DNA of 64,000 bases, from NCBI GenBank assembly GCA_963920575.1, contig OY986967.1:7211166-7275165 (forward strand), read 5' to 3'. Numbering within the stretch: position 1 is the first letter of the stretch; the number at the start of each line of letters is the position of its first letter. This stretch comes from Narthecium ossifragum. Taxonomy: Eukaryota; Streptophyta; Magnoliopsida; Dioscoreales; Nartheciaceae. This document shows positions 3,499 to 64,000 of the stretch, piece by piece. The position numbers were made by a program, and so were the translations under genes. The notes under the pieces are model-generated. The model searched no databases and was not told the origin of the DNA. It was given only the letters and a program-made list of their open reading frames with translations.

Positions 3499-3499
3499 G

Positions 3500-8638: not shown

Positions 8639-8727
8639 GTTCGGGGTCAAGGGTTCTGATGTTGTGGATCATTTGGATCATATCGATCCTGGGGATCGAC
8701 GATTGTAGACTTAAATGGCATTTTTGG

Positions 8728-8753: not shown

Positions 8754-8756
8754 GGT

Positions 8757-11134: not shown

Positions 11135-11334
11135 NNNNNNNNNNNNNNNNNNNNNNNNNNNNNNNNNNNNNNNNNNNNNNNNNNNNNNNNNNNNNNNNNN
11201 NNNNNNNNNNNNNNNNNNNNNNNNNNNNNNNNNNNNNNNNNNNNNNNNNNNNNNNNNNNNNNNNNNNNNNNNNNNNNNNNNNNNNNNNNNNNNNNNNNNN
11301 NNNNNNNNNNNNNNNNNNNNNNNNNNNNNNNNNN
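11135..11334. other. Assembly gap of 200 N
   Basis: Exactly 200 N. It cuts the integrase of the minus-strand Ty3 element at 11335-14952; frames reported through it are not meaningful. The round length suggests a placeholder, so true size is unknown. Confidence 0.99.
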
Positions 11335-28137: not shown

Positions 28138-28142
28138 ATTAG

Positions 28143-29537: not shown

Positions 29538-29698
29538 TTTGCTTGACAATTGTAGAGATTTTTTCTTATTGGAAATAAGAGGTGAAAATATACAATGCTA
29601 TTTTATACTTGTAACTTTATATTATTAATTTTCTCATACTTCACATTCGGTTCTAATGATATGTTAACAATTGATTCGAATGTTACAGGCTTATTGTT

Positions 29699-31860: not shown

Positions 31861-32555
31861 ACATGATGGATCAGGCACATCTGAATAGATTTGGAAATTA
31901 GTACCGAACTTCATTTCTTTATGCATCTTGCTTCAAATTAGCATTGTTGACACTAAAACACATTGCATTGCATTGTATAGGTTTAGCTCATTAGTCGGAA
32001 TAAGACAAAGCAAGACCGGTCGAAGCAACTAAAGGTAAGTTGAGAACCTTTTTATGTTTCTATAATAGGACAACTTAATCTATCAAATGTTGGGATGTCA
32101 TAGATATATGGTTTTTTTCTATTTGCTGAATGTATTTCTTTTCTTTGACCAGAATACTTATGGCAAATAATCATATATTAGATATATGGTTTTGTTTCTG
32201 CATATCTTTGCTCCTTGTTCTAATTTAATGAGTTCTCCATAATCTATTGTCTTTATTTTTGCTACCTGGTTCAATGTTTGTAGCCATTTTTGAGTGTTGT
32301 AGCCATCTTTGTTTATGGGAGTTGGTAGTCTGTCATTACTCTTTAGATTTATCAACTTTCATAACTCGGTTATCTCTTATAGCTGACTTGTTGATATTTT
32401 TTATATGTCTCTAAACAACTCATGCTCTTCATGGTCTCTAGGAATTGACCTGCTTGAACCTAATAGTGGTTCTCATTTGCTTAGAAGTTAATACAACTAT
32501 TCATGATTCAGCTCTACATATGCTGTGACGCTTGATGCTTCCCTTTTTTTCGGAC

Positions 32556-33250
32556 ATATTGATGCAGGACAAAATCCGGACCTGACCGAGTCCGATTCGG
32601 AGCAGCTCCTGAGGCGATTCGGACGCGTTCGGACTCCATTCGTCCGACTCAGATCTCCGGGCGACCCCAACCGTCGGAGGGGCATAACTTTCGATCTGGG
32701 TCTCCGATCGAGGCGTGCGACCAGTCGAAACGACCGGCTCGACGAGCCCATTAAGAATCATCGGAGATCGAAGATCTCTTCATGACTTTGACCTCCGAAT
32801 CTCCAAATTCCTTTTCGTTTGGCTTTAAATTTAATTTTTGTGAAAAACTTTTCTTTTTAGGCAGTTTGTTCGGGTCCTTTCTATTTTTGACAAATTTTCT
32901 AATTTTAGTAGGTTTTCTCCTATTTGAATTCCGGGTTTAGTACTTGGATTAGGATAATGATGTTTGAGTCCGTATTTGAGTTAGTCTGGTCTTTCCTTAA
33001 ACCTATAAAAGGAGGTCTTAGGGTTTGTAAAGCTAGTTTTTGGATGATGAATAAAAATTAGGGTTTTTTGGTTTCTCCCTGGCCCTTGAGAAATCTGGTT
33101 GTCTTTCCCATAGAGAGGTCCACGTTACCCTACGCCACATACTCAGCATGATCTTCTTGTTTCTCAAGGACACATTTACAGAGCACCCTTATAAAACAGT
33201 TTCAACTGACGCAAATTAGACCTTTCAAGTTTTCACCCTAGTATTGGAAG
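32556..33250 (+). mobile_element. LTR-like segment with promoter
   Basis: A GC-richer island within the CACTA 3' region. It carries GGCATAACTTTCGATCTGGG, typical of plant Ty3 LTRs, then 300 bp later a TATA box CCTATAAAAGGAGG (33002-33015) followed by GTCTTAGGGTTTG. I see no pol sequence. The ends are approximate and no target duplication was found. Confidence 0.4.
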
Positions 33251-34042
33251 CTTTATTCTCTGTGTGTATTGATTGCTAAGTATGATGTTCAGTTTTCCTT
33301 TTTTCCAACTGTGAATATTGAGTGCATGTATACTCGAGATCTAGTCATATTTCCACAGCACATTTTGTCAGTGCTGCTACTTGGTGTATATACAAAGATA
33401 CAACCCTTTGAGTAGTACTTTTTATCCCATGGCATATGCCTTTATCACATTGGTTACTGCTGGCCATATTTCCTCAGCATCATTTTCTCAATGATCTCTC
33501 GTGTATGCTTCCATTTTTACTATTCTGCCTCATGTAATACCTAGATCTTTTCTACAGGTGCTTGCAGACTTGTGTACTATATGGGACTAGATTTTGAGTT
33601 CCAAACTGCACATACATCAGGGATATAATTAAATTCGTACTCCGTGATTCTTGTTTTACCGGTCATTCGATAACCATGGTACTTTTTTGGTTTCTTCTTA
33701 TCTCTGCTAGAATACTTCGTAATATTATTCTTTCTTCTTCTGCTGAATGTAACTTATTGCATGATGTATACCTTATTAAATTTGTTTCTGCATTGTACGA
33801 TATATATATACACATGGTAATTTGTCTTCTGCTAGATGGATTTCGCTCATTGTCCTAGGCCTATTTCTATTTCTCTAAATAGCATCGAGCTTTTGCTGTT
33901 ATCCATCAAGTCTAGTTGGGTTGTATGCTGCCAACTTGCACTGATCTTTTATAGCTTGTGATCATATACAAATAAGAAGAGGAGCAACGTTAAATAAAAG
34001 GCAAATGAGTTTTTAAATGTGGTATGGGTGTTGATAAAAGTA

Positions 34043-34428
34043 GGGGAAATTACCTTTTTCGTCCCTCAAGTTTCATCGAAGTAACGTTTAAGTCCCTAAT
34101 CTTTTATAAGTTTCAATTGGGTCCCTACAGTCTCCTTTTCATCACAATGTGGGACATCTGCCTGACGCCGTCTATTTTCTTAACTGCTAGGGTGTCACGT
34201 GACCGCACGTGATGGATGCCGTGCAGATGAAAGTAACGTTTTAGTCCCTTAACTTCCATCACGTGCGGTCATGTGATACCCTAGCCGTTAAGTATAGAGA
34301 CGGCGTCAGGCAGATGTCCCACATTGTGACCAATAGGAGACTGTAGGGACCCAATTGAAACTTAAAAAAGATTAGGGACTTAAACGTTACTTTGATGAAA
34401 CTTGAGGGATGAAAAATGTAATTTACCC
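34043..34428. mobile_element. MULE-type MITE with perfect 9-bp target duplication
   Basis: A 386-bp foldback. Arms of about 175-180 bp (GGGGAAATTACCTTTTTCG… at left; inverted GGGTAAATTACATTTTTCA… at right) are around 90% identical, with a ~40-bp centre. The flanks 34034-34042 and 34429-34437 are both ATAAAAGTA, a perfect 9-bp duplication, the size made by Mutator-like transposases. No coding sequence. It is inserted inside the 3' region of the CACTA element. Confidence 0.95.
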
Positions 34429-35159
34429 ATAAAAGTATTAGTTGTTGAGAACCGAACTTCTTTGTATGCAGCGTGTCTGTCCAGAGTTCAAGATCTTTGC
34501 CCAGTTTTCAGCTGTGTTCTGTGGCTATACATACCAAGATCTATTGAACCCATTGACATTATCTCATGTATCACTCACAGAAACGAGGCATTAACTTGAT
34601 GCATATCTAATTTATATGCAGAATTGTGGATAAGTATTCCTTCATCTTGTTTTGATTTGATTAGTGATTAATTTGATGCATATCTAATTTATAATTTGGT
34701 ATTGTTTGATTTCTTTAATCAGCCTATTTGATATTTTGGGCATTAAATTTGTTGAGTAAAGAAAGTTATTGATGAGCATATATAAAGAAAATTATTTGGT
34801 ATTCTAGACATCAACTTATTTGTTATTTGATCTTATCTTTCTGTTCTCCTGTTATGATACTTTATAATTTTGATTCCTTCTATACTCGGGTTTGCAAATG
34901 CTCCTGAGTCAGCTTGAATGGATTAGTCATCTTCTAATAATAATAAAAATCTTTTATCAAGGGCTAGTTTCTTGAATCATGAGAGCTTAGTTGTGTTGCT
35001 ATTTGTAGATGCTAGTTTTTGTCCTCAAAAGATCGACCTTGACTGTGCTAATTGACCTGTCTATAACGATGTATACTTAATTGATACATACAGTTAATTG
35101 ATAGTGGTTATGTGCTTTGTAATTGTTGATATTTTTCAAAGATATTAAAACTATTTTTT

Positions 35160-35726
35160 AATTATTACAGGTACATATACATCTATTGCGACAAAATATG
35201 CCACAATTTTGGTGTCTTTTGTGACAAATTATTTTGTTGTTAGAAGTTAAATAGACATTGTAATGAAATTATTTTGTCACAATAGTTACATTTATTGCAA
35301 CAAAATATTTTGTCGCTATTTTTATGCTAGATTGTGACGAAATCATTTGTTGGAATAAATATGTTTATTGCGACAAAAATTTTGTTAAAAATTATAGTGA
35401 TAAAATATTTTGGTCGCAATATCCCCCATGTCGAACATGCCTATCACTACAAAAACATACATATGATCATGAAGTCTTTTATTTGTGATGACAAAATATT
35501 TTGTCACCGGTACTAGTGTTATGGTGACGAATTTTTGTTTGTCGTAACTTATATGCACCTATTGTAATAAATTGCTACATTTATCATAATAAAATTATTG
35601 CGACGGACTTGTTGTAACAAACTTGGTGATGAAATATATATATTCGTCACGACAAGTATACAGTGACAAATAGAAGACTTATTGCCACGAAAGTTTTTGT
35701 CACGAAGTCTCGATTTTGTTGTAGTG
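35160..35726 (+). mobile_element. CACTA subterminal repeats and 3' terminus
   Basis: Dense repeats of GCGACAAAAT / ATTTTGTC(G/A)C in both orientations fill 35175-35700, the usual subterminal binding-site region of CACTA elements. The last bases, CGATTTTGTTGTAGTG ending at 35726, are the inverse of a CACTACAACAAAA end. A candidate internal end, CACTACAAAAACATA, starts at 35445. The matching 5' end was not found in the window. Confidence 0.75.
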
Positions 35727-35819
35727 CAAGCACATGCTTCTAGCATGAAACTGTAATTGCGATGCATAAATACTATACACTAGTTTCATTCGTCATTTCC
35801 ATATGATACCCATTACGAC

Positions 35820-36380
35820 GTAAATCCTTAAAACTGAGGAGATTTCTTCCGGATTTAGTAGAGTATAATGCATCATCCGTAGATAGTGTTGTTTTTCAGC
35901 TCTTAGTAAGGCATCAATAAGTTCAGAATATTTCTTGAAATCACAATGCCTGTACCGTTGTTGTAGGATCAGATTGGAAGCATGGAAGGTGGAAAAAGTT
36001 TTCTCAAGTTTGTCATGGTCAGATATGGTTTGGTCACATAACTCTAATTGGAAAGTGATCTTATGAAGTGCAGAATTGTGCTCACTAAAGGTTTTAAAGT
36101 CTTGTATTGGGCAGTAGGAAGGAGGATAGTTCTCAAGTGTTAGAACATTTCATTTAAATTTCTCCATAAGTCTAATGGGTCCAACATAGTGAGGTATTTA
36201 TTTTTTAGATCATCATGTAGGTGACGGTGGAGAAAAATAAGGGCACCGTCCTTTTCAATTTGGGTGATTGTATTCCCTTCCTTATTTGTATTCCCCATAT
36301 TTGTGGCATTCAGATGGCGCTCAGCATTTGTAGCGCCCATGACAAGAAGTTACTTCTGGTAACTTGAAGGGGAAGGAACT
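35820..36380 (-). pseudogene. Ty1/copia gag fragment
   Basis: The minus strand encodes, with a few frame breaks, NTITQIEKDGALIFLHRHLH and DDLKNKYLTMLDPLDLWRNL (36340-36170), then KTFSTFHASNLILQQRYRH and KKYSELIDALLRAEKQ (about 35990-35870). This is a widespread plant copia gag. The upstream LTR lies at 37085-37319 in the right orientation. Protease, integrase and RT are absent: sequence to the left is the CACTA terminus at 35726. Confidence 0.8.
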
Positions 36381-41635: not shown

Positions 41636-42199
41636 CTAGCTAGCAGCATCTCCTCTTCCTCCTCTAGGAAACAACTCCTTAAAAGAAGTCACCTTGGTGG
41701 TGGTGGTGCAACTCCTCTTCTCCTCCTCCACCACCCTTCCACCATTAATGCTATTACTAGAAGTAGGAGGAGGAGAGGAGGTGGAGGGGTTGGAGAAGAG
41801 CGGCGTGGGTACGTAAAGAGAAGATGGGAAGTTGGTGCGAGCCTTGGACCCCCTCAGGCGCCTCGCGGCGGCGTCGTAAGCCCGGGCGGCCTCCTCGGCC
41901 GTGTCGAAGGTGCCTAGCCAGTGGCGGCAACGGCCCACCCGGTCTCTTATCTCCGCCGACCATCGTCCCCATGGCCTCTTCCTCACCCCTCTGTACCCCT
42001 TCCCTCCCGCCGCGGTGACCTCACCGCCACTACTAATGTTTGCGTCGTCGCCGGAGGTGGACGGTGGGGGGTGCATGCCGAAGAGAACGTAGTAGCCCAC
42101 GACCGCCGCTATGCCTTCCAGCTCTACCGGACCGGCCGGGTCCGGGCGGTCCGGTTTGAGTTGGTGGCTGTGAACCGTGTCGGTGCTGGAAAGCTCCAT
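41636..42199 (-). CDS. AP2/ERF transcription factor
   Basis: A 187-residue, single-exon protein. One AP2/ERF domain lies at about residues 69-125: [51 protein letters not shown]. The Ala and Asp of SAEIRD are those typical of ERF rather than DREB proteins, so GCC-box-type DNA binding in the nucleus is expected. The domain wording and single domain resemble the small group VIII-like ERFs (Arabidopsis ERF084/ERF087 type); this subgroup call is from memory. The N-terminus ([19 protein letters not shown]) may be a subgroup motif; the C-terminus is Ser/Pro-rich with no EAR repression motif seen. The ATG has a strong plant context (ACAACAATGG). There is no frame damage and it is GC-rich, unlike its AT-rich neighbours. 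It is the only intact ordinary host gene in the window. Confidence 0.93.
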
Positions 42200-42230
42200 T
42201 GTTGTGGGAGTAGGGAGAGAAGTTCGTGTG

Positions 42231-42240
42231 TATTTATATA
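42231..42240 (-). promoter_or_regulatory. TATA box of the ERF gene
   Basis: The minus strand reads TATATAAATA, 31-41 bp upstream of the ERF start codon. If used at normal spacing, transcription would start within a few bases of the ATG, leaving almost no leader. Confidence 0.6.
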
Positions 42241-42254
42241 GGTGGGGTGTGGGA

Positions 42255-42262
42255 TGACGTCA
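42255..42262. promoter_or_regulatory. TGACGTCA palindrome (bZIP-type site)
   Basis: A perfect 8-bp TGACGTCA lies 15 bp upstream of the TATA box of the ERF gene. It is the core bound by TGA/CREB-type bZIP factors in general; its use here is inferred only from position. Confidence 0.45.
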
Positions 42263-42960
42263 CCGTGATGGTAAGGTTACCATTTTACATGGTTCCCATG
42301 AAAGGGCGATGGCATGCAAGTATAAGGACGTACCAACGAAGGTTGTGCAGCTTTTTTATTGAGAAGAAGACACTGAGAAGAGCTTTGGGTCGGGTGATGT
42401 CAGCTATTGTCACTGGAGGTGACGGCAGACAGCTCTGCATGCGTACAAATAGCTAGTGTCTCTTTTGTATGCGCGGGGATGAAATTTTTTGCATTTTAGT
42501 ACTCCTAAACTTTGCTTTTGCCGATTTAATACATTTGTCCTGTTTTTTTTGCATCTTAATACCCCTGGCCATGGAAAATCCGATCTTACCCCTCACTTAC
42601 CCATGCCCACATACATGCCATGCCCAGCCACATGACGTGGCTGGGCATGTATGTTATAATATGAACTTCCCGGTTAAACGGGTCTTGTCGCGTTCATCAC
42701 CCCCACACGTGACAAGACGCAATTAGCCACGAATACGGCGGTGGAAATTCCGAATTTTGGTTGTATCCGGAGCAGTACCAGTACGTCATGGAAATTCCGA
42801 ATTTTGGTTGCATGGGCCGACGTCATATATTCGCCGACGGCCTCCTGTATCTTATGCGCGAAGCACCGGCTTGAGAAGGGAGTGCGGCCGACCTCCAGTA
42901 AATTGTCGTCACCATTGCTTGTCTTTGCGGTTCACACGAGATAAGAGTTGGAGTTAAAAA

Positions 42961-43684: not shown

Positions 43685-45142
43685 CGATGGAAATGGAATG
43701 GGTGGTACTCGGAAAAAGGTCTAGGGTATGAGAAACTTTGGTCGCGATGGAATCGAACGCAATCTCTCGATCTCTCGATCTCCCGGTGAAGATTGGAAGG
43801 GTAAGCAGAAGATTTGTAAAGCCACATTCAAATCCCTTTTTTATGCGTATTTATCCGACGCGTCGCTTCATCTTCTCGTCGCCTGCAACCGCCGTATTCG
43901 TGGCTAATTGCGTCTTGCCACGTGTGGGGGTGATGAACGCGACAAGACCCGTTTAACCGGGAAGTTCATATTATAACATACATGTCCAGCCACGCTGGGC
44001 ATGGCATGTATGTGGGCATGGATAAGTGAGGGGTAAGATCGGGTTTTCCATGGCCAGGGGGTATTAAGATGCAAAAAAACAGGGCAAAGGTATTAAACCA
44101 CCAAAAGCAAAGTTTAGGGGTACTAAACTGCAAAAAATTCACGGGGATGAGGATATGCCTCCTTTAGCTATGCCATCTTGTCACCAATAAAAATATTATT
44201 AATATATATATGTGAAGAAAATATTGATGAGGATATGCCTCCTTTAGCTATGTCAGCGTCATACTGCTGTGACCTTTCATTTTTTAAATCCCGTCAATGG
44301 ATACGTAGCTCCAAGTTATGTGTTCATATTGAGGACATAACTTTGACTTACATCATAAACCTTTTGACCACCCCCCAATCGCAGGGAGGCGCAGTACTAA
44401 GAGATAATAGACCTAATAAGATGTGGGTTGGAGTTACGTCTAGATTAATGAAGACATAACTTCCACTTACGTCTCTGGTCCTTATCAAACCCCGCCGCTG
44501 GTCCTCCTCCTTCCCCACCCGACTTTCCACCCGACATTTCTCTGACGATTCTCCCCATTTTCCTTACTTGGATGACATTTCTCCGGCGAACTTCCTGACG
44601 TCGGATCTCCTCAGCGCGCGGCTCCGTGGCTCTGTGGCTCCACGGCTGCATGTCGCGCCCCGACCCGCGAAAGCCCAACCGGGCCGGGCGACGCGAACCG
44701 GAACCTAACCAACGCGGAAAAAGAACGACGAGGGTTCCCTCTAACCTATTGGTCTCCCTAGCAATTCACCAAAGCATCCTCAATTAAATCAACAATTAAC
44801 AACATCGAACCACAGATTAAAAACTCAAGTGTTAATATACATATCCTCGGAGAGGGGAAATTCGAATACAACATACTCCCGTAATAGACTATCTAACATA
44901 AGGGTAAAAACGGTAAAGGATCACCACCTCTCAAAAGCCGCCAGGCGCCGCCGCACCGCCGACCAACTGCCCGGTAGGGGCCAAAGAAGAAGAACCGTCG
45001 TCTTCACCTGCAAAACGCAGCCCCAGGTAGGTGTGAGCACTAAGCTCAGTAGGGATCTACACTACGACACACAGAAGAAAGAGGGGAACGCAACAGTGTC
45101 GCCCTCAAGTAGGATCTGGGTGTATACAGGGGTCCCATAACC

Positions 45143-45475
45143 CCACCGCGTGTGCCTGGTGCCCAGGAGCAGCACACAGTAAGCTCAACAAACACTGGCG
45201 ACACGAAAGGTCAGCACAGTGGGACAACCGCGTGTCCCTGGTGCCCAGGAGCAGCACACAGTAAGCTCAACAAACACTGGCGACACGAAAGGTCAGCACA
45301 GTGGGACAACCGCGTGTCCCTGGTGCCCAGGAGCAGCACACAGTAAGCTCAACAAACACTGGCGACACGAAAGGTCAGCACAGTGGGACAACCGCGTGTC
45401 CCTGGTGCCCAGGAGCAGCACACAGTAAGCTCAACAAACACTGGCGACACGAAAGGTCAGCACAGTGGGACACCG
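45143..45475 (+). repeat. 82-bp tandem repeat, four copies
   Basis: Near-identical copies start at about 45147, 45229, 45311 and 45393, each with CCTGGTGCCCAGGAGCAGCA, AAACACTGGCGACACGAAAG and GTGGGACA. The first copy has GTGTGCCTG instead of GTGTCCCTG. No equivalent array occurs in the other three LTRs. Frames through it are artefacts. Confidence 0.97.
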
Positions 45476-46892
45476 GCTACACTTCAGCCTCCGACTCGAG
45501 GCCGACACGACCTCTACAATCATCAAGCCACAAGTGTACCAGTCATCTAAGCCTATCATTGAATCGACTGGACACCACAATTCCAACCGGGTCCAAACTA
45601 CCCAACCCCGGTCCCACGGCTAAGTCCGAGCTTCCAGCCTCGGGACGGCGACCCAAAGATCACCCATGCCCTAACCAATGCAACTAATGCACAATCAACA
45701 ATGCATGCTATGACATACACAAACAGGAGATAGGCATGCAACAGTATGACAAACATCATATAAGTCAACCGGATCGCTGCAGCGGTACCACCGACCGCTG
45801 CCAGCCGATCCGCAGCGGGTCCCGGCATTACGACGGTACCGCAACCGTCAACCGCGAACTCCTGCAACGGGAAGCAACCCCGAAAACCGTTGATGAACAA
45901 AACACAATATAATATTATATTCCGAAATATAATATTATATTCAAAAACACCCAAAGCCTCTACTTAGGAGCTAATTGATCCCGTCGATCCGACATCCATA
46001 CTACGTCGGATTCAAGATCCAACTTATCCACCCGTAGGTGTACAAACCAGGATCATCATATCCAAAAATCATAAACATCCAACGGTTGGATTAATGGGAA
46101 AACGCTAATCAAAAACCGGTAATCAACTAACTTAACAATTAATTTCTGCAAGCAGCTCTCCAGCAAACAATTCATAATAAATCGTATAAAACTCGGAAAA
46201 ATATGAAACAAGATATAATGGAAAGCTAACGAATAGATCTACAACTCTTATGTTTGTGGAAAGCTAGGATCATGTACACGCCGGCCGGAAAAGTCGCCGC
46301 AAGCCGGCTGTTCTTCAAGAACAGCAGAAAACCAGAAATCCGAGACTAATCATGCATAAAACCTACTCAAATCTCAACTGATTAACATGAAACTTAAATC
46401 AATAACTCTGACATGTATAAGAAACCCAACAAAGTAAGGATCAACAAGATCCAACGGCTAGATCTCAAGAACACCCGAAATAAACATCAGTAGGTATAAC
46501 CCTACCTAGCTGCACTTTCCTCGGCTGATTCCCCGCGATTTGATCACCAACAAGCCTCCAAACCTCTTCAGGGATCTTCCTCTCGTTGTCACGAATCCAA
46601 CGAGCCAAAGAAGACCCAATTTGATGGTCGGAGGAGGGAGAACGGAAGAGGGGAAGGTGGCTGCCGGAAAAACAGGGGAAGAGCAGAGCTTCGGGGGAGA
46701 AGAGAAGAGAAGAAGAAGAAGAAAGGAGGAGGAGGAAGAGGAGAAGAAAAGGAGGAAAAAGGGGGGAGGGGACAGCAGGGAAAGAGGGGAAAAAGTGAAA
46801 GAAGGGGAGGGGAAGTCTTCCCCCTCTGACAGGAGAGAGTGACGGCCAACGGCGGCCATCCTCGCGAAGCAGAAAACCAACCGACTTATAAA

Positions 46893-52174: not shown

Positions 52175-53433
52175 TGTTAGAGAGGAAATTTAATCGTTGA
52201 CCGGTCAAATAGTGAAAGTCAAAATCCTATTCCACACTTAAGTATCAGATGATTGTAGTTGAGTTCTGCTCTTTCGAATTAACGAACCAAAGATGTCAAG
52301 TAATACGGAAATCTAGATTAGACCTAATTAAATAATCTAATTATCAAGATTAACTTAAATTAACCTAAGAAAAGCTTTAAATTGTCTAAGATTACGGAAT
52401 TAAATAAAGCATAAAGATCAACTTAAATTACTGAATCTAGAAAACGCAATTAAACCTATTAAATTAACTTAATCTAAGAAAGCAGTAACTTATTCTAATG
52501 GAAAACAGTAAAGAAAGCTTAAATAACAGAAAGCGTAAAAGAAGACTGATAAAACCTAAATTAATCTTAAAATACTCCTATGATCATAAAGAAAAGAAAC
52601 AGTAAACAGTAACTAATTTAACTTAATTAAACCATGAAAAAGAAACGAACAGAAAGCGGAAACGGAAAGAAATCCATTAATCTAGAACTATAAAACAGAA
52701 ACAAAAGGAAGAAAACGATTAAAACGACTACATTATCGAGATTACACTAAGAAAGCAATAAAAGACGCCATTAATCAAACTGAAAGCTTTATTAATCAAC
52801 TTACAGGTACAAAAGAAACGAAAGCCATGCTTAAGAACAGGTTACAAGTTGTCGGGGGGGTTTACAGTGGAGAAGAGAAGCTATTTATATTAAGAAACTG
52901 AATAACTGCTCCCGCCTTGAGGGTTGATGGCGTGGAAAGAGGAGATCATGTGCGAACTGCTCCGTAACAGCTTCTCTCACGTCTGTGTCTGATTTGGAGA
53001 GTACACGTGGTCGATTCTCGTTCATTGCATACGTCATGATTACGCTGGCTTACTTATCGTTTCTTGTCCACGTCATACCTGCATGTGTTTTTTAACCATA
53101 TTTGGCACACGTGTTAATTACTTTTGGACGATAAAATTGAGTAACATGTCCAATTGTGACTTTTGGGCGATGATCGTCCATAGTCCTTTAAATGATGGTG
53201 CCATATGGACGATATCGTCCATTTGGTTAAAATTCTATCGTCCATTTTGGTCGATAGATTTCATCGTTTCATTTGGTCGATATTTTATCGTCCATTTGGT
53301 CGATAGACTCTATCGTTCATTTGGTCGATAGGTTTCATCTGGTCGATAAGATTATGTAGTTATCGTCCATTTAGTAATTGCTTTTTGCTTACGTGTCCGT
53401 CATTTAATGATTTAGCCATTATTTTGGCTAACA
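52175..53433 (-). mobile_element. 3' LTR of the Tat-lineage Ty3 element
   Basis: 1259 bp with inverted ends TGTTAG…CTAACA. On the minus strand it starts TGTTAGCCAAAATAATGG directly after a polypurine tract, and has a TATA box ATATAAATAG at 52881-52890 (minus). Near its minus-strand start lies a run of TATCGTCCATTTGGTCGATA repeats (53200-53345). The left flank is ACTCT; the partner LTR would be right of 64000, so the duplication cannot be checked. Confidence 0.88.
53200..53380. repeat. TATCGTCC…GGTCGATA dyad repeats in Tat LTR
   Basis: Six to seven units of about 25-30 bp based on TATCGTCCATTTGGTCGATA, an imperfect inverted repeat. Related words (CTATCGTCCA, TAAGGACG) recur at 57501-57562 between the two convergent genes. 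Confidence 0.75.
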
Positions 53434-53450
53434 TTTTGCCCCCCATGCGG
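53434..53450 (-). other. Polypurine tract of the Tat element
   Basis: The minus strand reads CCGCATGGGGGGCAAAA immediately before the LTR start TGTTAG. This is the priming site for plus-strand synthesis and fixes the orientation of the element. Confidence 0.85.
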
Positions 53451-53831
53451 TAATCGAGGAGACACTTTAATGACGAGGTGACCGCATCATCCGGGATTTG
53501 ACCGTTTTGTCTAGGTTTTCAAATTTAATCATGGCGGATGTTTAGGAAAATGAACCGCTGCGCCGTTTCTTTTCTCTATCCAAATCTTTTGGGATCTGGC
53601 ATTTAAACTTTCTGGAAAGTAACGACAAAAAACCCTTTATTTAAATCCCTTCCTTCAGCCAGAAAAGAACTTTCTTCGCCTGTCTTCTTCTTCAAGTCTC
53701 CTAGGGTTTTATTGCTCTTCACCTACCTCCGCGGCGGTTCTTTGTTCTTTTCCTCTTAACTCCGGTGTCTACACTCGTTCGTCATCTTGGTGCGTGAGAT
53801 CAAAGCTGACAACGATGTGCAAAAAGAGGTG

Positions 53832-56800
53832 ATGTCCGCTGTGGGAGATTTCAATGAGAACATGAAGTCAGATGACATAAGGAGTGGTTATTTGGTCCGG
53901 GAAGGTGATCCTAATTCTCAGTTATGTATTTTGGGCCCTTGTTTCATTCCTGAAAGTATTCCTTCCCTTGGTGTTGAGGAGGCTTTTCTTGTACATTTTT
54001 TTCCTACTTCTGTCGATTTGCCCTTTTCTGGAACCCTAAATCTCTCTTCCCTTTCTTCAAAAAACCCCATCATCTCATGGCCATTGGTTGATGACACATT
54101 TGTCAAATGGTATAATAGGATGATTGGCCATTCTGAGACTAGGTCAATTTTTTCTAATGCGGGTATCTTAGATTTCCTTGAGTTGAGCACCAGGGTTCCT
54201 CTTCAAGACTCTAATTTGCTTATTTCGTCGCTCCTTTTTTGGTCGACAGAATATAACAATTTTGTCTTTCCCTTTGGTTCGCTCACCATTACTGTGTTGG
54301 ACATATCGCTATTGACTGGCTTAACTCCACTTGGTACTTCTGTATCGGCCAATATGGACGTGTCCATGAAAGAAATTGTTTTTGAGGCCGATAAGAACTA
54401 CAGCCTTTTCATTAGTTACTATGCCAAGTTGTCTGAGAGCGATGGCCCTCCAAACTCTCTTGAACGATTAGCGTTCATTTACTATTGGCTTTGTAAATAT
54501 GTCCTTTGCCTTCCTGCCAAAAAACCTGTTAAGGGGTATATCCCACTCGCTCGGGATCTTTCTTCAGGCAAACAAATTTTTTCTCTTGCTCCTTTTATTT
54601 TGTCGGCCATTTATCGAGGGATGTATCTCATCCTTGAGCAGTTGAGAGAAGGGGGTAGTTTGACGGGATTTGGTCCTTTATGGCTCGTCCAATTATGGCT
54701 TAGAGCTTACTTCCCTGATCTTCACATGCCGCCTTCATCGTCATCGGCCAGAACTCAAGGCCATTTGTATCTTTCTTCATCTTCTATTCCCAAATCCTTT
54801 AGACAGGCGTTCAATTATTTCTATACTTTGTCCAATTTTTCTTCTTATCGTCCATTCAATCCTGAATGTCACCCATCGTCCATTAAGCCTCTACTTGATC
54901 TTTCCTCAGAATTAGAGTCTGACGAGAAGATATTGGCTTGGGCCCGTTTTTTTATCGGCTGTGATCTTCATTTTGATACGGCTTGGGGCAAGGCAAACAA
55001 TAAATGTGGAGTAGAAGTGTATGCTCCCAATTTTGCTGCTCGCCAATTTGGCCTTAAACAATCTTGGCCTGTGCCACCATACTTTAGCTTTAATATCGTT
55101 GCTAGGTTGCGATGTGTCTTATCAGACATGGAGCGAGTAATATATGTGGACAAGAGAGAATTGCTCCTTATTAAGAGGTTTAGGCTTAGATCTTTTGAGC
55201 CTACTAGCAAGATTGAAGCTAGTATCACTGACAGCTGGAAAGAAATGGTCGATGAACGTCTTTTCTTTGCTGACAAGGACCTAGTTTTTGAAAAGTTCAT
55301 TCCTCCAAGGGAGAAGAAAAGACAAAAGCAATTGGCTGTTAGTCATCGACCAAGTAAACGAAAGACAAAAGGTATATCTTCATCGTTCTCCTTGAATTTT
55401 TGATATCCTTTCTTCATCTAATACAATATGATCGATAGGTTCAGACAATGAGGGCGATGCGCCGCGCAAAAAGAAACGTGGAAAAGGCAAAACTATCGTC
55501 CAACCTCAACCATCTTCTTCTCCAAAAGATAAATCGTCTCCTCAATCGATGAATTCTGAAGATGAGGATGATGAACCACTTACAAAGAGACGTAGTAAGG
55601 GAAAAACTATCGTCCAACCTCAACCATCTTCCTCTCAAAAAGATCAATCATCTTCTCGGCCAATTGCAGAGGAAAAGGTTGATTCTCCCAGCAATAGTCA
55701 TCAAAGCAGTCAATCTGCTCATGCCACGTGAGTATCATAACATTTTCTTTCTTGTTATGTTTGTCTTTTTCTTTTGATACTTAAACTTTTGCATCTTCAG
55801 GACTGCGGTAGAGGTGGGCTCTAGTACTCCGAGCTCTTTGTATTCTTTGTCTCCTTCTCGACCTACAACCAAAGTTCATGAAGTTATGGTTGTTACATCT
55901 CCATCACAAATGGTTGAGGAACATCCTCCAACTTCTCCTGGTCAAGCTGATAAAAGTGTGTCTCTAACTTCCTCGGCCAAATCTTCTTCAAAGGCAAAGG
56001 CGCATGTACGTTATGGTGTTAGAATCAAACGACTCGCCCAAAAGAATTTAAAAGTATAGATAATTTTATTTTATTGATGATCGATTCAATCGACCATTCT
56101 CTGACTTTTAACTCTTTTAGGAGTCGAGGAAGCCAAAATCTGGTGGTCACGACTCTGGTCAAGAAGAGGAGGATGAAGACGATAACAACATCTTTGACGT
56201 CTTAAATACAACTCCATCTAAACCAGGTTTGTCATTAACTGGTAGAAAACTCGTTCATGGTCCGTATAGTTTTCTACGAGACCTTGGTAATGCGAGTTTA
56301 TCTTCTGTATCAGCTTCTCCTAATATTCCAGCTGCTTCAACTCAAGTTGAAGATCTCTCACCCAAAACCGTTAAGCCGGGCATCGCTGCCTCTCCAGTTG
56401 TTTCATCAACAGAGGCAATAAATGCATCTCCAACACTCCGCCGCGGTGTCTTTGAACAAGTAATGGTCGATATTATATCACCAACTTCTCATGTTCCAAC
56501 ATCAACTACTGATGTTCAAACAAGGGCGACTACTAAAAGCCCTACAGCCGCTCCCTCTGCGATGAAGACTTCAACTCCATCATTTGTTACACCCACTGCT
56601 CATCCATCCAGTTCTACCTCTTCACAGGTATTCATCGTTCAATTTGATTCTATCGATCATTTAGTGTTAACTCTTACTGACTGCTGGTTCTTTTCAGGGC
56701 GATCTCGCCCACTTGATGGATGTTGTCCAGGCATTTTCGGATTCGTGGCATGCTATTGTTACTGCCAAGAAAACGGCTGTTGATTTTGAAGTTGCACAAG

Positions 56801-57414
56801 GGAGTCAACATGCAGAATTCAGGCGAGCCTTATCCCAATGCCTTGTAATTTTAGACAAACTACCTGAAGAGGACTTCACCAGATTAGATAGTGAAGCACT
56901 GGACAAAGCCATAACACCCTTTCTCTCCGTGGATCCTACAGTCTTAGGATTTTCGTCCAGTGATATGGACGATATTCATAACATTAAGATCAAGATTGAG
57001 AGTCTGACTGCTGAGAGAAACAACTTGATGAATGAGATAGTTCTTATAGGGGAACGTCAAGAGCGGCGTACCCATATCAAAGATGTCATCAGCAATCGTG
57101 TCAAACAACTTCAGAAAAACACTGATGATATTGGCGAAAAAGAATCAGAGATTCTTGGTTACCAAAACCAAATGAAAGAGTTAGAGGAAAAAATCGCCCA
57201 GTGCACCACTCAAAAGAACTATCTCCTTCGCGAGACTACTCAACTGGCTGAGGAGGGCAACCAAATGATGCAAGAGTACGTCGCTTTAGAGGCGAATTCC
57301 TCAAAAGATCGCCAAGTCGAGTTGAAGGGTGAACTTGTAAAGAACAAGCAACGCTTTAGAGCAATCCGTGAAAAAATTGCTCTTTTATCTCAAAATCTCT
57401 CTTTGAAGAGATAA
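53832..57414 (+). CDS. Intact five-exon plant mobile domain protein, antisense in Tat element
   Basis: Exons 53832-55371, 55439-55727, 55801-56053, 56121-56627 and 56698-57414. All four introns start GT and end AG and phases join, giving 1101 codons plus stop without a break. The ATG at 53832 (MSAVGDFNENMKSDD) is the first in frame. Exon 1 holds a PMD-type domain at about residues 100-400: LFWSTEYNNFVFPFGSLTIT, LLTGLTPLG, LAFIYYWLCKYVLC, LWLVQLWLRAYFP. The middle is Ser/Thr/Pro-rich with Lys/Arg clusters (RKKKRGKGKTIVQPQPSSS occurs twice in variant form), possible nuclear signals. The last exon encodes a long coiled coil (about residues 940-1095). Position between pol end and 3' LTR, opposite strand, matches extra antisense ORFs with PMD/Transposase_28 known from Tat-type plant elements. 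PMD function in transposons is unknown; host MAIN/MAIL1 relatives act in silencing. Confidence 0.88.
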
Positions 57415-57602
57415 ATTTTGCTTGTCTAATATGAGCGATGAAATTTGTAATGTAACACTTTTGGCCGATATATTTTGTAATGAACAAATTTTGTTAATTG
57501 CTATCGTCCAAATCTTAAGGACGTATTTTGTCAATTGCTATCGTCCATATTTTAAGGACGTTTTCCTTCTATGCCTTTTATTCCATTTATGGGTAGTATT
57601 TC
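57415..57602. other. 188-bp spacer between convergent aORF and pol
   Basis: Contains two ~40-bp copies of TTAATTGCTATCGTCC / TCAATTGCTATCGTCC followed by an A/T segment and AAGGACG, so each has a CGTCC…GGACG dyad. It might serve as 3' end region for both convergent transcripts. Confidence 0.6.
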
Positions 57603-60535
57603 TTAAGGTATCGACCATTGATCATTGATCGATGCAACCCACCATCAATAGTTCTCAATTGATATGATCCATTTGGAAACACTTGATCGACCAAGTATGG
57701 TCCTTCCCAGTTGGGCGATCACTTTCCATATTTGGAATCATTACGATCTATAGGTAGGATCGTTTTCCAAACTAGATCTCCTTCTTGAAATTCTTTTGAA
57801 ACTACCCTTTTATTATAGATATCGGCCATTTTCAACTTTTGTGCCTCAATATTTTCTAAGGAAATAGCTCGTTGCTCATCAAGCTGTAAAAGATTATACA
57901 TTAATGCATCTTCATATTCTTCACTAGTTGAGCGATCTTATTCCATAACTCTGGGCGATAGAACATTTATCTCAGCCGGTAGCAGCGCTTCTTGGCCATA
58001 AACCAATTGGTAAGGCGTAACCTTAGTACTAGACTTAGGTGTAGTTTTATGTGCCCATAACGCTCTTAGTAAACCTTCATACTATTGCCTTGGGTTATCG
58101 TCCATCATCTTTCTTATGATTGACTTGATGGTTTTATTGGACGCTTCAGCTTGTCCATTAGACTGGGCATAATAGGGTGTAGAATTAGCCATATTAATTT
58201 TATACTCAGCTAAAAATTTCTTTACCCTAGAACTTACAAACATTGTCCCTTGATCAGACACAATTGTTTGTGGAATGCCAAATCTACATATGATATTTTC
58301 CAAAATGAAATTTATCACTTGATCATCAGAAACATTTTTTAATGGAATCGCTTCCACCCATTTAGTAAAGTAATCTGTCGCCACAAGTACAAACTTGTGC
58401 AACATGGACGATGGAGGATAAATTTTCCCTATAATGTCTATCGCCCAACATCTGAATGGCCAAGGCTTAACAATGATCGATAATTCACTTGCTGGAGCTC
58501 GCTGTAATGGACCATGTCTTTGGCATGCCTCACATCCTTTGGCATATATAGCACACTCCTCCCCCATGCGCGGCCAATAAAAGCCACTGCGCATTATTAG
58601 CCAGCGCATTTTGATGCCAGACTGATGTGCTCCACAAACACCATTATGTATCTCGGCCATTGTCAATTTAGCCTCATCAGGGTGCAAACAGCGCAATAAA
58701 ACGCCATCTGGTCGACGTTTATACAAAACGTCGTTTTGTAGAAAATAATGTATCGCTTTAAGACGAATTTTTCTATCAACCTTAAGCGATGGGTCTTTCA
58801 AAAAATTGACGATTGGGGTTCGCCAATCCGGTTGGTTATCGATTTGACTTACCTCGTTTGGTCGATCATATCGCTCTAATGCAGATTGTATTATACCAGA
58901 ACGAAAATCGTTCATGCCCCCCAAGTGTTTTAACACTTTATAGCCTGATGCTATTTGGGCGAGGGTATTGGCCTCATCGTTCTGTAATCTTGGAACGAAT
59001 AATAGTTCAAAATCATTAAAACGATTTAACAACATTAGAGCGATTTGATGAAATGGAATTAAGATATCACTATGGTATTTATAATGTCCAAGTATATGAT
59101 TAATCACTAATTGTGAATCACCTTTGATTTGCACATTTGACACTCCTAAATCTAACAAAATTTCTAGGCCGATGATTAGAGCTTCATACTCAGCCTGATT
59201 GTTAGTACATAATTGCGATAGAGTGTATGCAAATTTATATTTGCGTCCAATGGGCGATAGGATCGTGATCCCAAGGCCAGCTCCATTGACAGTTTTAGAA
59301 CCATCAAAGTACATCGTCCATGGGGTGAGCGATATGTTATTAATCTCTCGCTCTAACTCCTTTGGTATATCTACGCAAGGATAGTCAGCTAAAAAATCGG
59401 CCAATGCCTGGCCCTTAACAGCCTTCTGAGATACAAATTGAATATCAAATTCAGCCAATGTTAAAACCCAATAACTAATACGTTGGTGCAAAATTGGCCG
59501 AGAAAACAAGAATTTCAATACATTGAACTTAGATATCAAGTAGACTGTTACAGGTTTTAAATAAGCTCGAAGCTTGGTACACATAAAATACAAGGCCAGG
59601 CACAACTTTTCTATGGCCAAGTACTTCTGTTCATAAGGTAACAACTGTCTACTTAGATAGTACACTGCTCTCTCAGCTCCATCTTTTCCTTCTTGCGCCA
59701 AGAGACCGCCTATTGATCGGTATGTGGCAGCGATGTAAAGTTTCATGGGTTGTTCCAACCTTGGTGGCGCCATAACTGGTGGCGTTGATAAACAGTGCTT
59801 CAAGCCCTCAAAGGCTTGTTGATGTCGCTCTTCCCAGACGAAGTCGTTTTCATTCTTTAATCTTAGGAGCGATGAAAACTCTTGAGTTTTACCTGCACAG
59901 TTAGCAATAAACATTCTCAAAAAATTTACTTGACCAAGGAACTTTTGCAGTTCTTTCTTAGTCTTTGGAGGACTAGCCTCAATTATAGACTTTGCTTTGT
60001 TTTGGTCAAGTTCTATTCCTCGCTGATGGACGAGAAAACCAAGAAAATTTCCTGCTTGTACCCCAAAGGCACATTTCAAGGGATTTAACTTTAAATTATA
60101 CTCTCGCATACGCTCAAAAGTTTTGATTAACTGTGAAAAGTGATCGGCCATAATTGGTGACTTTACTACTATGTCATCAACGTAAACTTCAACAAAGTGG
60201 CCAATCATATCATGAAAAATTAGATTCATCGCTCGCTGATAAGTTGCACCAGCATTTTTTAAACCAAAAGGCACAACAACCCATTCATAACTTCCAAGTG
60301 ATCCTGGACATCTAAACGCCGTTTTATGAACATCATTATCGGCGATATAAATTTGGTTATATCCAGAATACCCATCCATAAATGAGTATATTTCGTGCCC
60401 AGCGGTGGAATCAACCAAATTATCGATCGATGGCATAGGGTACTCATCTTTGGGTGTAGCCAAGTTTAAATTTCTAAAGTCTATACAAACTTTAAGTTTG
60501 CCATTTTTCTTCTTAACTGGCACTATATTAGAAAG
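57603..60535 (-). pseudogene. Tat-lineage pol: RT, two RNase H domains, integrase (stops at Trp codons)
   Basis: An 813-codon open stretch (60523-58082) and a tail to the stop at 57603. RT: VPVKKKNGKLKVCIDFRNLN and the catalytic YVDDIVVKSP. Then a degenerate RNase H (YIAATYRSIGGLLAQEG), followed by an archaeal-type RNase H with all acidic residues (MYFDGSKTVNG, NNQAEYEAL, KGDSQLV, NDEANTLA), hallmark of the Tat lineage. Integrase has an HHCC zinc site (CGAHQSGIKMRWL…CEACQRHG) and DDE core (WAIDIIG, IVSDQGTMF, NGQAEASNK). Tail GPYLVDQVFPNGSYQL. In-frame stops: TAG 58082, TAA 57938, TGA 57719. The enzyme motifs are intact but the polyprotein is interrupted. Confidence 0.93.
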
Positions 60536-61033
60536 TCACTTTACATACCTGGCCGTTCTAATAAAGTTAGCGTTCAACAATCGTTCAATTTCTTTCTTTA
60601 CTTCTGGGATTATGTTTGGAGCAAAGCGTCTAGGCGCTTGCTTATATGGTTTAAAATTTGGTCGAGTAGGAAGCTCGTGCTCTACAATATTCCTATCCAA
60701 ACCAGGCATTTTTTTATAATCCCATGCAAAGCAATCTTTATAGGAACGCAAAATAGCAATGAGTTTGTACCTTACATCTTGGTCGATAAGCTTGCTGATG
60801 AAGGTTGGACGATGCTCCTCGCCATCACCAAGGTTGATTTCTTCCAAAGGGTCTTGAGCTTGCATATTTCCACGTTTGCCATAAGGGACTTCTTCCTCTT
60901 CTTCTTGGGGGATCTCTTTTAGACAATCTAGGTCATTCTCTTCTTGTGCAGCGAATGCTTCCACTTGATAAGCCATTAGTTTGGCTTTTAAGGCCGTTAC
61001 AGCGGCCTGATTTCTTGCAGAGTCTGAACTCAT
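60536..61033 (-). pseudogene. Tat pol: linker and RT N-terminal segment
   Basis: The ATG at 61033 overlaps the stop of the gag-protease frame as TGATG. It encodes MSSDSARNQAAVTALKAKLM, an acidic linker (EIPQEEEEEVPYGKR) and the RT start (FISKLIDQDVRYKLIAILRS, FAWDYKKMPGLDRNIVEHEL, APRRFAPNIIPEVKKEIERL, ANFIRTARYVK). It ends at a TGA (60536-60538) where related elements have tryptophan before LSNIVPVKKK, so one G-to-A change separates it from the main pol frame. Confidence 0.9.
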
Positions 61034-63267
61034 CACTTCTGATTTGTGGCCGGTGATCGGCCAGTTTTGGGTGCAAAGACCACTGAGGTTGGTCTTGCTG
61101 GATCGAACAGCTCCGCTACACGCTCCCTTAGCATAACTCCATTCTCATAGACTACCTTGAGTGTGTTTTCAAACTGAAGGAATTGCAAAGGGCCATAATT
61201 GCAGTTATAGAAAGATGCCTCCAAGGCATGAGTGTCCATACTGTATGGCATGTTGTCGGCCATAACTGATTCCACGCTCCCCTGGTCGTTCCATAAAAAC
61301 AAGCATTGGTGAAGAGACGAAGGAACACATTGACTGGCATGAATCCAGTCTCGACCAAGCAGCACGTTATAGCTGGTCGATGAGTCCATGACAAAGAACG
61401 CTGTCGTTCTTGTGACACTTCCAACCTTAATATCCAAAGGAAGGATCCCCTTTGCTGGGCCTGGAACTCCACTGAATCCGGTTAGTGTGATATCCGTGGG
61501 GATAAGATCACTATCGGTTTTGTGCAGCTTCTTCATCATTTTTGCAGGGATGACGTTCACTGCGGCCCCGGTATCAATTAGGACTCTGCTTACTGGGACA
61601 CCATTGATCTCGGCCATGATATGAAGAGGCCGTAAATGGCGCGTCATTGCTGCTGGAGGTCGTTCGAACACTGCATTGTTCAAACCTTGATGGGCTTTCT
61701 TGTGTGAACTGGCCGATGACTGAGGTTGATGGCTGACTGCTTTCCCCTTGGCCCTAGCTGCCACCTGGACGACCTCTGGGTTCTCTTGACCATCCCATGA
61801 TGGCCACTGTTGATCCTTTTGGTGTTGTTCCTGCTGTATCTCTGTTTCTTCCATGTCCCAACCAGTTGGAACGATTGGCACTTCACTAGCTTGCGGAATG
61901 TACTTGGCCACCTCAGACTTGGGAACCCACTTCTTCACAATGGGATTGCCATAGCAAACCAAGTAATCAAATTTTCCACTTGGTTGGCCCTGAGTACTGA
62001 TAGCTGGATTACCTGCCTTGTAGAGATCCATCAATAGCTTCTTTTGGGAGATGTTTCTTCTCGCTGCTTCCTCATTAACTTTAATGGGTACTTCTATTTC
62101 CACCCATTCCACATCCTCGACCATGGGTTCTTGTTCTTCATCTCCCCAACCAGTCGGAACAATTGTTGTTGATGTTGATGGTATGATTTGGGCGACAACT
62201 TCCGTCTTTTTTACAAGACGCTTCACCTTGACGTCTCCATAAACCCGGAGATAATCATATCGGCCACTTGGCTGGCCACCTGGTCCAACTGCTGGATTTC
62301 CTTCTTCATACAACTGCCTCAACAGCTGTTCTGTAGATATATTCCTCCTCCAAGCTTCTTCACCAACGTCGATTTTTTCTTCTACCTCAATGTACTCATC
62401 CTCCTGGTCGAGCACTAAGTTCACTGACGGTGAATTTTCCATTTCATCGACCAAGGTAGCCGATACATCTCCATCTTCCTCGACCAGTGTGGCTGACGAT
62501 CCATCATCGGCCAAATCTGATATGTCTGAGTCACTTTTAGTTGGACATTGTTGTCCAAGGCGGCTCGGCAGGATGTAGTTGTTCATGATGACTGACGGGA
62601 GTGTTCCGAATCTGATCACCTGGTTTGCTCCAGCCTCATCATCATCATCCTTGTTTGGACGATGGAACTTGCTCTTTGAAGACTCTATTGCATTAGAGAC
62701 AACAACATCCTCTTCAATATCTTCAGCCTCCTCTTCCTGACTTGGGTTAGCTTCCTGGGCTTGCTTGGCCTTCATCATCTGGCCATACTTCTTCTGGTAG
62801 CGGCGGTACTGAGTCCTTGTCATCTCCTCCACAGGAACTGACCGACGAGTATAGCAGTTGTAGTTGTACCATCGCTCTGGCTTGTAAGGCTGAGGCATAA
62901 AGCTTTTTGGGTACACGTGAGGCTTAACTCTGTTCCACTGCCTTGGCTGTGAATGAGGAAACTTGGTCCCGGAGAAAGGTGTCATCGGGCGACTGAGATC
63001 CCAATGACATCTGGGGCAGACATGTGGAATGGCAGGTTCCTTCCCTTTGTCTTGGCTAAGTCTTGTGAACACATCTGGACGACTGTCGTCCTCAGTCTCG
63101 TCAATGACAATCTTGAATTTTGGCAATTTGAAGTTTGCCATATCTGTCAACACCATTCCCACTGGAGCAGCTTTGGGGAATGGATTTGCATCAACTCCCA
63201 TGTGCTTGGCTGGGAAACCAATCCTTCCGGAATCAATCGCATCCTGCAAAACATTACGGAAAGCCAA
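61033..63267 (-). pseudogene. Tat gag C-terminal half and protease
   Basis: A 744-codon frame open from 63267. It starts in gag (FRNVLQDAIDSGRIGFPAK), passes a CPRCHWDLSRP zinc-like site, and a long region with two related modules: EEAWRRNISTEQLLRQLYEEGNPAV… GQPSGRYDYLRVYGDVKVK and EEAARRNISQKKLLMDLYKAGNPAI… GQPSGKFDYLVCYGNPIVK, each about 60 residues, i.e. an internal duplication. The protease near residue 565 has an intact VLIDTGAAVNVIPAKM motif and VLLGRDWIHA. It ends TGRSPATNQK with TGA sharing a base with the next ATG. Upstream it is cut from the rest of gag by TAG at 63301. Confidence 0.9.
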
Positions 63268-63300
63268 ACATTGGTTAGTGTGATGTGACCAAGCATTATG

Positions 63301-64000
63301 CTACTTACAATATCTTTTGTCCTTGATCTCATCAAGGCTTGGCATAGCATGTCCATCTTTCAATTTAACTTGTTTATCTTTGGGTAATTGATCAAAGATT
63401 TGATCTGCCTTTGAAACATCAAAAGAAAACTTTCGCATTGGACGTTTACCGTCTCTAATTACTTCTTTACCCTTAAGTTCTCGCTCGAGTTTGGCAAGAG
63501 CTTTACATATATAAAGTTTTCCTTTAAGGAGCTCGGCCAAACAAACATCGTTCATGTTGTAGTTTTCTTCATCTACTTCACTAACTTGGTTTATTTCATA
63601 GTTAGTATCTCTATAGTAAGTTCATTTGGAAGATGATTTCATCTGATCTTCTTCTCTCAACAACTGTTCATAGCGTATAGCGCTAGTCTGCAGTTGAAAT
63701 AGGTCAATAAAATCCCTATCTTGGAACTTTTTCTTAAGTTCAAAGGCTAATCCACTTTGAGCGATTTTCACAAATTCCCTTTCAGGCAAGGGAATAAAAC
63801 ACCTACTTCTCGCTCTTTTAAATCTTTGTAAGAATGTCTCAGCATTCTCATCTGGCCGTTGTCTAAGCTGAGCTAAATCGGCCATTGTTATTTCTGATTC
63901 TGACTTATAAAATTGAGAATGGAACGCATGTTCCATTTGCTGCAAATTTTGAATAGAATTGGGCGATAGTTTAATGAACCATGAATAAGCTACCCCGGAC
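63301..64000 (-). pseudogene. Tat gag N-terminal part (runs off the window)
   Basis: Two open stretches: from the right edge to 63622 (HAFHSQFYKSESEITMADLA, ETFLQRFKRARSRCFIPLPE, FQLQTSAIRYEQLLREED) and 63555-63301 (KFSFDVSKADQIFDQLPKDK, DEIKDKRYCK). The first ends at TGA 63622-63624; the second at TAG 63301-63303, where WH-type sequence is expected. The translation continues open to base 64000, so gag begins outside the window together with the 5' LTR. Confidence 0.9.

Follow-up and report, generated by a model that had tools for sequence, protein, structure and literature searches.

Why would a retrotransposon carry, on the strand opposite to its own genes, a spliceable gene for a plant mobile domain (PMD) protein, and what might such a protein act on? 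The question is raised by a stretch of 64,000 nucleotides of the Narthecium ossifragum genome (hereafter the window), in which an earlier note had placed a five-exon antisense PMD gene inside a Tat retrotransposon.

The host element and its antisense gene

The element covered about 14.7 kb (14,675 bp), reaching beyond the window (Table 1). Domains in pol were ordered RVT_1 (7-167), RNaseH_2 (234-327), RVT_3 (410-527) and rve (693-789). This is the gypsy order of RT, RNase H and integrase, to which a second RNase H is added between RH and INT; in its available text, PMC6317226 describes the same arrangement in Ogre and Retand, two Tat elements of angiosperms. The protease was also encoded on the minus strand, opposite to the PMD gene. 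These minus-strand domains, together with the G-run, confirmed the position claimed for the gene, on the strand opposite to gag-pol and between the end of pol and the polypurine tract. A TATA-like box was located in the LTR at 52881 (minus strand). In-frame stops broke both gag and pol of the window copy. At a rate of 1.3e-8 per site and year, the 98.0% identity of the LTRs places the insertion somewhat under one million years ago.

Table 1. Coordinates of the element, its antisense PMD gene and the TCGNCCA sites in the window
Feature	Position	Strand	Remark
3' LTR (partner LTR outside the window, at L041 1756-3015)	52175..53433	-	98.0% identity over 1260 bp
14 TCGNCCA sites clustered over ~360 bp in the presumed U3 of the LTR, upstream of the TATA-like box	53008..53369		
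Dispersed TCGNCCA/TGGNCGA sites, n = 77	53008..64000	43 +, 34 -	
Polypurine-tract-like G-run adjoining the 3' LTR	53434..53446	-	read from sequence
Exon 1 as first drawn; holds the plant mobile domain (residues 111-415)	53832..55371	+	
Intron 1, GT-AG	55372..55438	+	
Exon 2; Lys/Ser-rich middle	55439..55727	+	
Intron 2, GT-AG	55728..55800	+	
Exon 3; middle	55801..56053	+	
Intron 3, GT-AG	56054..56120	+	
Exon 4; middle, low complexity	56121..56627	+	
Intron 4, GT-AG	56628..56697	+	
Exon 5; C-terminal, helical, coiled-coil-like	56698..57414	+	
pol (RT, RNase H, second RNase H (RVT_3), integrase)	57590..61144	-	in-frame stops
gag-protease, part inside the window (gag continues in L041)	61033..64000	-	in-frame stops

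The five plus-strand exons of the antisense gene totalled 3306 nt and 1101 stop-free codons in compatible phases, separated by four GT-AG introns of 67, 73, 67 and 70 nt (27-34% GC). A direct repeat of 113 nt (55431-55543 and 55545-55657, 79% alike) spanned much of exon 2. The PMD that the earlier note had read in exon 1 was recovered with Pfam (PF10536, E 2.2e-30, 106 bits against a curated cut-off of 34.9) and was the sole match of this exon at E up to 10, with no DUF1985. In a scan that covered exon 1 and the exon 4 and exon 5 frames, no match to Transposase_28 (PF04195) was obtained. Searches of protein databases yielded two and one relatives (three in all), while exon 1 had no relative among solved structures up to E = 1, and no relative was found among viral contigs.

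In the PMD protein, the PMD lies at the N-terminus and is followed by a basic middle of low complexity and, towards the C-terminus, by a long helix. A single-sequence model of exon 5 (mean pLDDT 86.2) predicted one helix of 112 residues and another of 35, as would fit a coiled coil; a prediction for exon 1 from a four-row alignment reached a mean pLDDT of 36.7 and was set aside. The coiled coil and the Lys-rich middle had been regarded as unusual additions to the PMD, a view that found no support: the C-terminal exon has a homologue (46% identity) in a sister subfamily, L042, and in the PMD proteins P0001 and P0002 from other plants the middle is likewise long and of low complexity and the C-terminus charged and heptad-like, as judged by eye.

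The gene had also been called fully open. Its frame was indeed free of stops, but the start codon of the family is altered in the window copy. This ATG lies 15 codons upstream, in frame, and is common to all 12 other copies compared, whereas the ATG at 53832 is a non-ATG codon in 11 of these 12. The frame is thus open, yet the normal start of this particular copy may be doubtful.

Copies of the gene and selection on the protein

A whole-gene DNA search of the same genome (379 Mb, 150 contigs) returned at least 43 rows, with 40 of 616 first-look candidates scored. The full-length span (base 1 or 3 to the end) was found in at least 34 rows including the window copy, the other copies (at least 33) being 88-95% identical. 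Seven of these 33 copies had a common span of about 3.6 kb and an identity of 92%; six of the seven lie on small contigs, and the group may represent duplicates of a single locus. When exon 1 was used as a protein query, at least 84 rows were obtained (84 of 1198 candidates scored), among which at least 35, window copy included, were stop-free. Recruitment by the host, which the earlier note had put forward as one option, found no support, since the gene multiplies with its element, as seen from the at least 33 other full-length matches and at least 84 exon-1 rows.

Twelve of the 33 full-length copies were fetched and compared with the window copy (13 copies in total). GT..AG ends were kept in 46 of 48 introns, intron lengths differed by 2 nt at most, and 55 of 60 exons had the same length; with the Pfam match to the PMD, this puts the claimed structure of five exons, four GT-AG introns, fitting phases and about 1101 open codons beyond chance. 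One of the 12 was open to the stop. The window copy is thus imperfect as a gene, yet open copies exist.

Over pairs of the 13 copies, dN/dS was 0.212 (ratio of means). Constraint was strongest in exon 5 (0.095), with 0.154 in exon 1, and weakest in the middle part (exons 2-4, 0.502). Changes present in two or more copies had a dN/dS of 0.182, against 0.521 for singletons. The earlier note had proposed to look among copies for a conserved frame and for dN/dS, and frame and introns were found to be kept with a dN/dS far below 1. This pattern is what a protein needed for multiplication would leave, followed by decay after insertion. A Tat-type Ty3/gypsy family carries the antisense gene as an accessory gene, which selection has retained as the family multiplies; the window copy, as a relic of that selected family, may well be inactive.

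A DNA word dispersed over the element

When the element was compared with the rest of the window, one word stood out, TCGNCCA. The whole element held 106 occurrences in its 14,675 bp (about 7 per kb), 52 on the plus and 54 on the minus strand, a balance that speaks for recognition of the word as double-stranded DNA. Between 52501 and 64000, 77 occurrences were counted against a mean of 3.7 in dinucleotide shuffles (n = 100; sd 1.9, max 8), while positions 1-52000 of the window held 15. Density was highest at 52600-53440 (16.7 per kb) and was similar in PMD exon 1 (5.8), exon 5 (5.6), pol (6.1) and gag-protease (6.5), compared with 0.29 per kb in the rest. The word was absent from 52175-53007 and from 53441-53831. 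Just outside the element, 2 occurrences were found in the next 3.5 kb, and each of 20 other 10-kb loci held between 1 and 7.

Codon usage did not account for the excess, as synonymous shuffles (n = 300) gave means of 3.5 for the PMD coding sequence (19 observed, max 9), 2.5 for pol (13 observed, max 6) and 2.7 for gag-protease (16 observed, max 7). Among 120 arrangements of the same letters in the internal part of the element within the window, TCGNCCA itself was counted 63 times and the runner-up 15 times. One-base variants were raised at most 1.7-fold, except TTGNCCA (2.8) and TCGNTCA (4.2). Bases flanking the word were preferentially A or T, most clearly an A before it, which makes long duplicated units an unlikely source of the sites.

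A scan for gapped words (3-1-3 words with all four letters present, found in at least 8 of 20 bins) was applied to 26 segments of 10 kb. The element reached a 19-fold enrichment in 19 bins, and the best of the 25 other segments 4.6-fold, these being a non-random set of 20 segments with PMD-profile matches and five from the window. Small clusters of similar words at 240-430 and at 37.7-38.6 kb of the window showed no significant similarity to the element. The idea that other PMD loci have dispersed words of their own was dropped in this form: the loci looked at more closely are, or adjoin, MULE DNA transposons, and their words were clustered and did not extend across genes. That the gene may help the element against its host, as the earlier note suggested, is still a conjecture, but the spread of TCGNCCA over the element raises the likelihood that the gene takes part in recognising it.

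Conservation of the word among copies and in a sister subfamily

In the 13 copies, compared over 4.6 kb, TCGNCCA occurred 21 to 38 times each. Where one copy had the word, a second copy had it as well in 3784 of 4819 comparisons; for other heptamers carrying CG at this position, the count was 25250 of 44758. The comparisons were pairwise and mutually dependent, and no P value is given for this reason. In exons, mismatch rates along T-C-G-N-C-C-A were.032,.051,.078,.084,.042,.028 and.011, with flanking rates of.112 and.122 for the two bases before and.117 and.065 for the two after, and background rates of.081 (A, T),.094-.095 (G, C) and.112 (CpG). The dip in exons was limited to the fixed letters of the word and one flanking base, leaving out the N and the three other flanking bases. 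In exons, TCGNCCA thus shows signs of selection. The word was below background in U3 as well (.06-.11 against.10-.17), but there the N (.057) and three flanking bases (.031,.056 and.058) were equally low, so that the U3 dip is no footprint of TCGNCCA. Among noncoding cases (n = 267), one C of the word was unprotected (.21).

The sister subfamily displayed the same antisense layout beside its integrase. Amino-acid identity with the window protein was 64.6% in exon 1 and 46.3% in exon 5, and third-position identity 0.48 and 0.37, respectively. Its 5.5 kb contained 27 TCGNCCA against a Markov mean of 1.8 (max 5 of 200), and its exon 1 contained 9, where synonymous shuffles (n = 300) averaged 1.9 and reached 6 at most. 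No excess was seen in exon 5 of L042 (2, with a mean of 0.7 and a maximum of 3 in synonymous shuffles). In the aligned exons of the two subfamilies, 12 of 23 TCGNCCA coincided (six places seen from both sides), the corresponding counts being 14 of 245 for other CG heptamers and 10 of 143 for permuted words. Where both subfamilies encode the same residue, third bases agreed slightly more often inside than outside the word, but not significantly so (10/16 against 214/417, p 0.27; 9/13 against 215/420, p 0.16), and part of the sharing may therefore stem from protein constraint. Between the window's subfamily and L042, the two compared, the density of TCGNCCA was kept over long divergence, and site-by-site conservation may partly reflect the protein.

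Possible roles of the gene and the word

At close to an even chance, in our estimate, gene and word form a system resembling VANC, in which the PMD protein, as an oligomer, reads TCGNCCA and marks or opens the chromatin of the element. The PMD protein would be the likely reader, alone or with partners, and its C-terminal helix would make oligomers bridging many sites. Once bound, the protein would mark or open the element's own chromatin, so opposing silencing and favouring transcription from the LTR, as VANC does for VANDAL DNA transposons. Introns would be tolerated in the antisense gene because they stay unspliced in the genomic RNA, a transcript of the opposite strand. So far, PMD protein and TCGNCCA are linked by inference and analogy. 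The selected, family-wide word is a candidate binding target for a PMD protein encoded by a transposable element (TE), and its reading by this protein would give the PMD a biochemical function.

It is also possible, although we would not expect it, that the PMD gene is conserved as an accessory gene of the ordinary sort and its protein acts independently of the word, which would be read instead by a host transcription or chromatin factor, or by another protein of the element such as integrase, for LTR activity or targeting. The densest cluster of TCGNCCA does lie in the LTR upstream of the TATA-like box, and host factors bind upstream of TATA in other LTRs. Nothing ties the PMD to the word, and papers on host PMD proteins leave open, in their available text, what reads the DOWN motif (PMC7156037, PMC9899485). 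A host enhancer site would, however, fail to explain why gag, pol and PMD exons have about six TCGNCCA per kb, more than codon choice accounts for. That the word has no function at all, and is a by-product of mutation, methylation context or codon usage (perhaps with its CG less methylated or better repaired), seems improbable. Both clearly raised variants, TTGNCCA and TCGNTCA, are C-to-T changes, which indicates that decay acts on TCGNCCA; the synonymous-only test between subfamilies was not significant, and the low mismatch in U3 was not limited to the word. Against a by-product stand the excess over both dinucleotide and synonymous shuffles, the lack of a like enrichment in other arrangements of the letters, and the constraint in exons on letters outside the CG (C.028 and A.011, against.095 and.081), with the N and three of four flanking bases unconstrained.

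Two further readings appear very unlikely. The antisense unit might work as an RNA that pairs with the genomic RNA and tunes copy number or siRNA production, the protein being secondary; the gene lies in antisense orientation over the 3' portion of the genomic RNA, and the available text of PMC7264820 discusses such a role for antisense ORFs, but a dN/dS of 0.21 together with intact introns and frames means selection on a spliced, protein-coding product. The window copy might equally be a gene recruited by the host or a mere relic, as stops in gag and pol and the absence of the family start codon would allow, although the many similar copies, the young LTRs (98.0%) and selection at the level of the family argue otherwise.

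Comparison with known systems

The reading of TCGNCCA by the PMD protein takes VANDAL and VANC as its model (PMC5735166, available text), with which the present element shares a TE-encoded gene with introns and a short DNA word enriched in the element. There, VANC21 binds the nonamer YAGTATTAY, enriched in its element, and the element loses methylation (PMC5735166). Differences are nevertheless apparent: VANDAL is a DNA transposon and the present element an LTR retrotransposon; VANC words form noncoding tandem arrays, the sites lying in noncoding repeats and being absent from the exons tested according to the same available text (PMC5735166), while TCGNCCA is also found in gag, pol and PMD exons; and VANC proteins carry DUF1985, which the window protein did not match.

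All four PMDs of one group (L011, L014, L020, L024) did match DUF1985 (E 2.6e-4 to 7.3e-4), and one DUF1985 protein of the same genome matched the PMD (E 0.004). No match to DUF1985 was obtained for the seven other PMD proteins (the window protein, L042, P0001, P0002, P0003, L001 and the L027 PMD), and hhalign of PMDs against a DUF1985 protein gave a probability of 1.6% (E 0.031). A distant kinship of PMD and DUF1985 is hinted at by these profile matches, as a lead. L014 and L024 also displayed a MULE transposase; L011 and L020 were scanned in the PMD frame only.

More broadly, LTR retrotransposons may have sequence-specific anti-silencing or self-recognition of their own, in which the antisense PMD reads TCGNCCA and PMD and DUF1985 are distant branches of one family of DNA-word readers; by analogy with VANC this is conceivable, and we propose it tentatively, rating it below probable. 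If true, sequence-specific anti-silencing would extend from DNA transposons to LTR retrotransposons. Related suggestions are in print: within the available text of these sources, counter-silencing by TE PMDs is suggested only, with VANC and TE PMDs named side by side (PMC8616336), it is suggested for MULE PMDs (PMC5418596), and a possible influence on methylation of the extra ORFs in sunflower LTR elements is raised as a question, with reference to VANC (PMC12844716). The terms "plant mobile domain" and "VANC" were encountered together in PMC8616336 and in a meeting report with separate talks, as far as the available text of both goes. In the open-access literature, we found no description of a DNA word both dispersed and under selection in an element of this kind, and DUF1985 and plant mobile domain occurred together in no paper among the matches listed.

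PMD extra ORFs of Tat/Ogre elements were reportedly described by Steinbauerova et al. in 2011. Among Tat/Ogre extra ORFs, PMD is present in 57% of Ogre elements (PMC6317226, available text), and the Gypsy-encoded PMD of clade PMD-A (PMC5418596, available text) is likewise a PMD extra ORF in a Tat-type Ty3/gypsy element. The antisense gene of Retand elements occupies the same place, and nuclear or regulatory roles have been proposed for it (PMC11963269); unlike the present gene, which has a PMD and no Transposase_28 match, 97% of the Retand clusters encode Transposase_28, with PMD unmentioned in the available text of that source. PMD genes and antisense genes in such elements being already in print, the gene alone is of a known kind. 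Compared with the published PMD extra ORFs, the present element adds the antisense structure with four introns, selection on the gene and the dispersed word.

The host proteins MAIN and MAIL1 are PMD proteins as well, and have been linked both to TE silencing and to a short DNA motif (PMC7156037, PMC9899485, available text). They differ in being host genes, and the DOWN motif (CATGCAGTTT in the MORC1 promoter) differs from TCGNCCA. Whether the PMD complex or another factor reads this motif is left open in the available text of both papers, direct reading being a hypothesis there (PMC7156037, PMC9899485). If PMD and DUF1985 do belong to one family of readers, this family would also explain the DOWN motif of MAIN and MAIL1 and the involvement of host PMDs in TE silencing, and would offer a route to how MAIN and MAIL1 find their targets.

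Other repeats and genes in the window

Two 10-kb stretches of the window, 3001-13000 and 26001-36000, were dense in ATCGATC words (32 and 26, respectively), with peak densities of up to 17 per 500 bp, and represent another repeat family. A tandem array, an inverted repeat and an AP2/ERF-type gene were also located in the window (table).

Features of the window and inverted pairs of plant mobile domain (PMD) loci on contigs (C) of the Narthecium ossifragum assembly
Feature	Location	Strand	Details
Tandem array	window 45063-45554		82-bp period; inner copies 99% alike
Inverted repeat	window 42636-42742 and 43888-43994		arms 107 nt, 98% complementary, 1145 nt apart
AP2/ERF-type gene	window 41636-42259	-	PF00847, E 1.8e-15
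Inverted PMD pair	C13:1059209-/1080572+	-/+	P0001 search
Inverted PMD pair	C4:10588148-/10613114+	-/+	P0001 search
Inverted PMD pair	C10:9390056-/9415114+	-/+	P0001 search
Inverted PMD pair	C13:14618644-/14645873+	-/+	P0001 search
Inverted PMD pair	C7:5927364-/5951232+	-/+	P0001 search

PMD loci elsewhere in the genome

The match table from searching the Narthecium genome with P0001, a PMD protein from another plant, displayed five pairs of PMD loci in inverted orientation, spaced 21-27 kb apart. Judging from the open frame, all ten loci seem to belong to the type of L042, the sister subfamily of the window element.

TACCGAT words were clustered at five other PMD loci (L011, L012, L014, L020 and L024), of which L014 and L024 also encoded a MULE transposase; the PMDs of L011, L014, L020 and L024 weakly matched DUF1985, a domain of VANC proteins from VANDAL DNA transposons. 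A MULE transposase was likewise present in loci L026 and L027, followed in the latter by a PMD frame. In each of these two loci, GTTACG-containing words were clustered at two ends, with about 6 kb between them, and L028 carried the same words. These three loci look like published MULE-PMD fusions.
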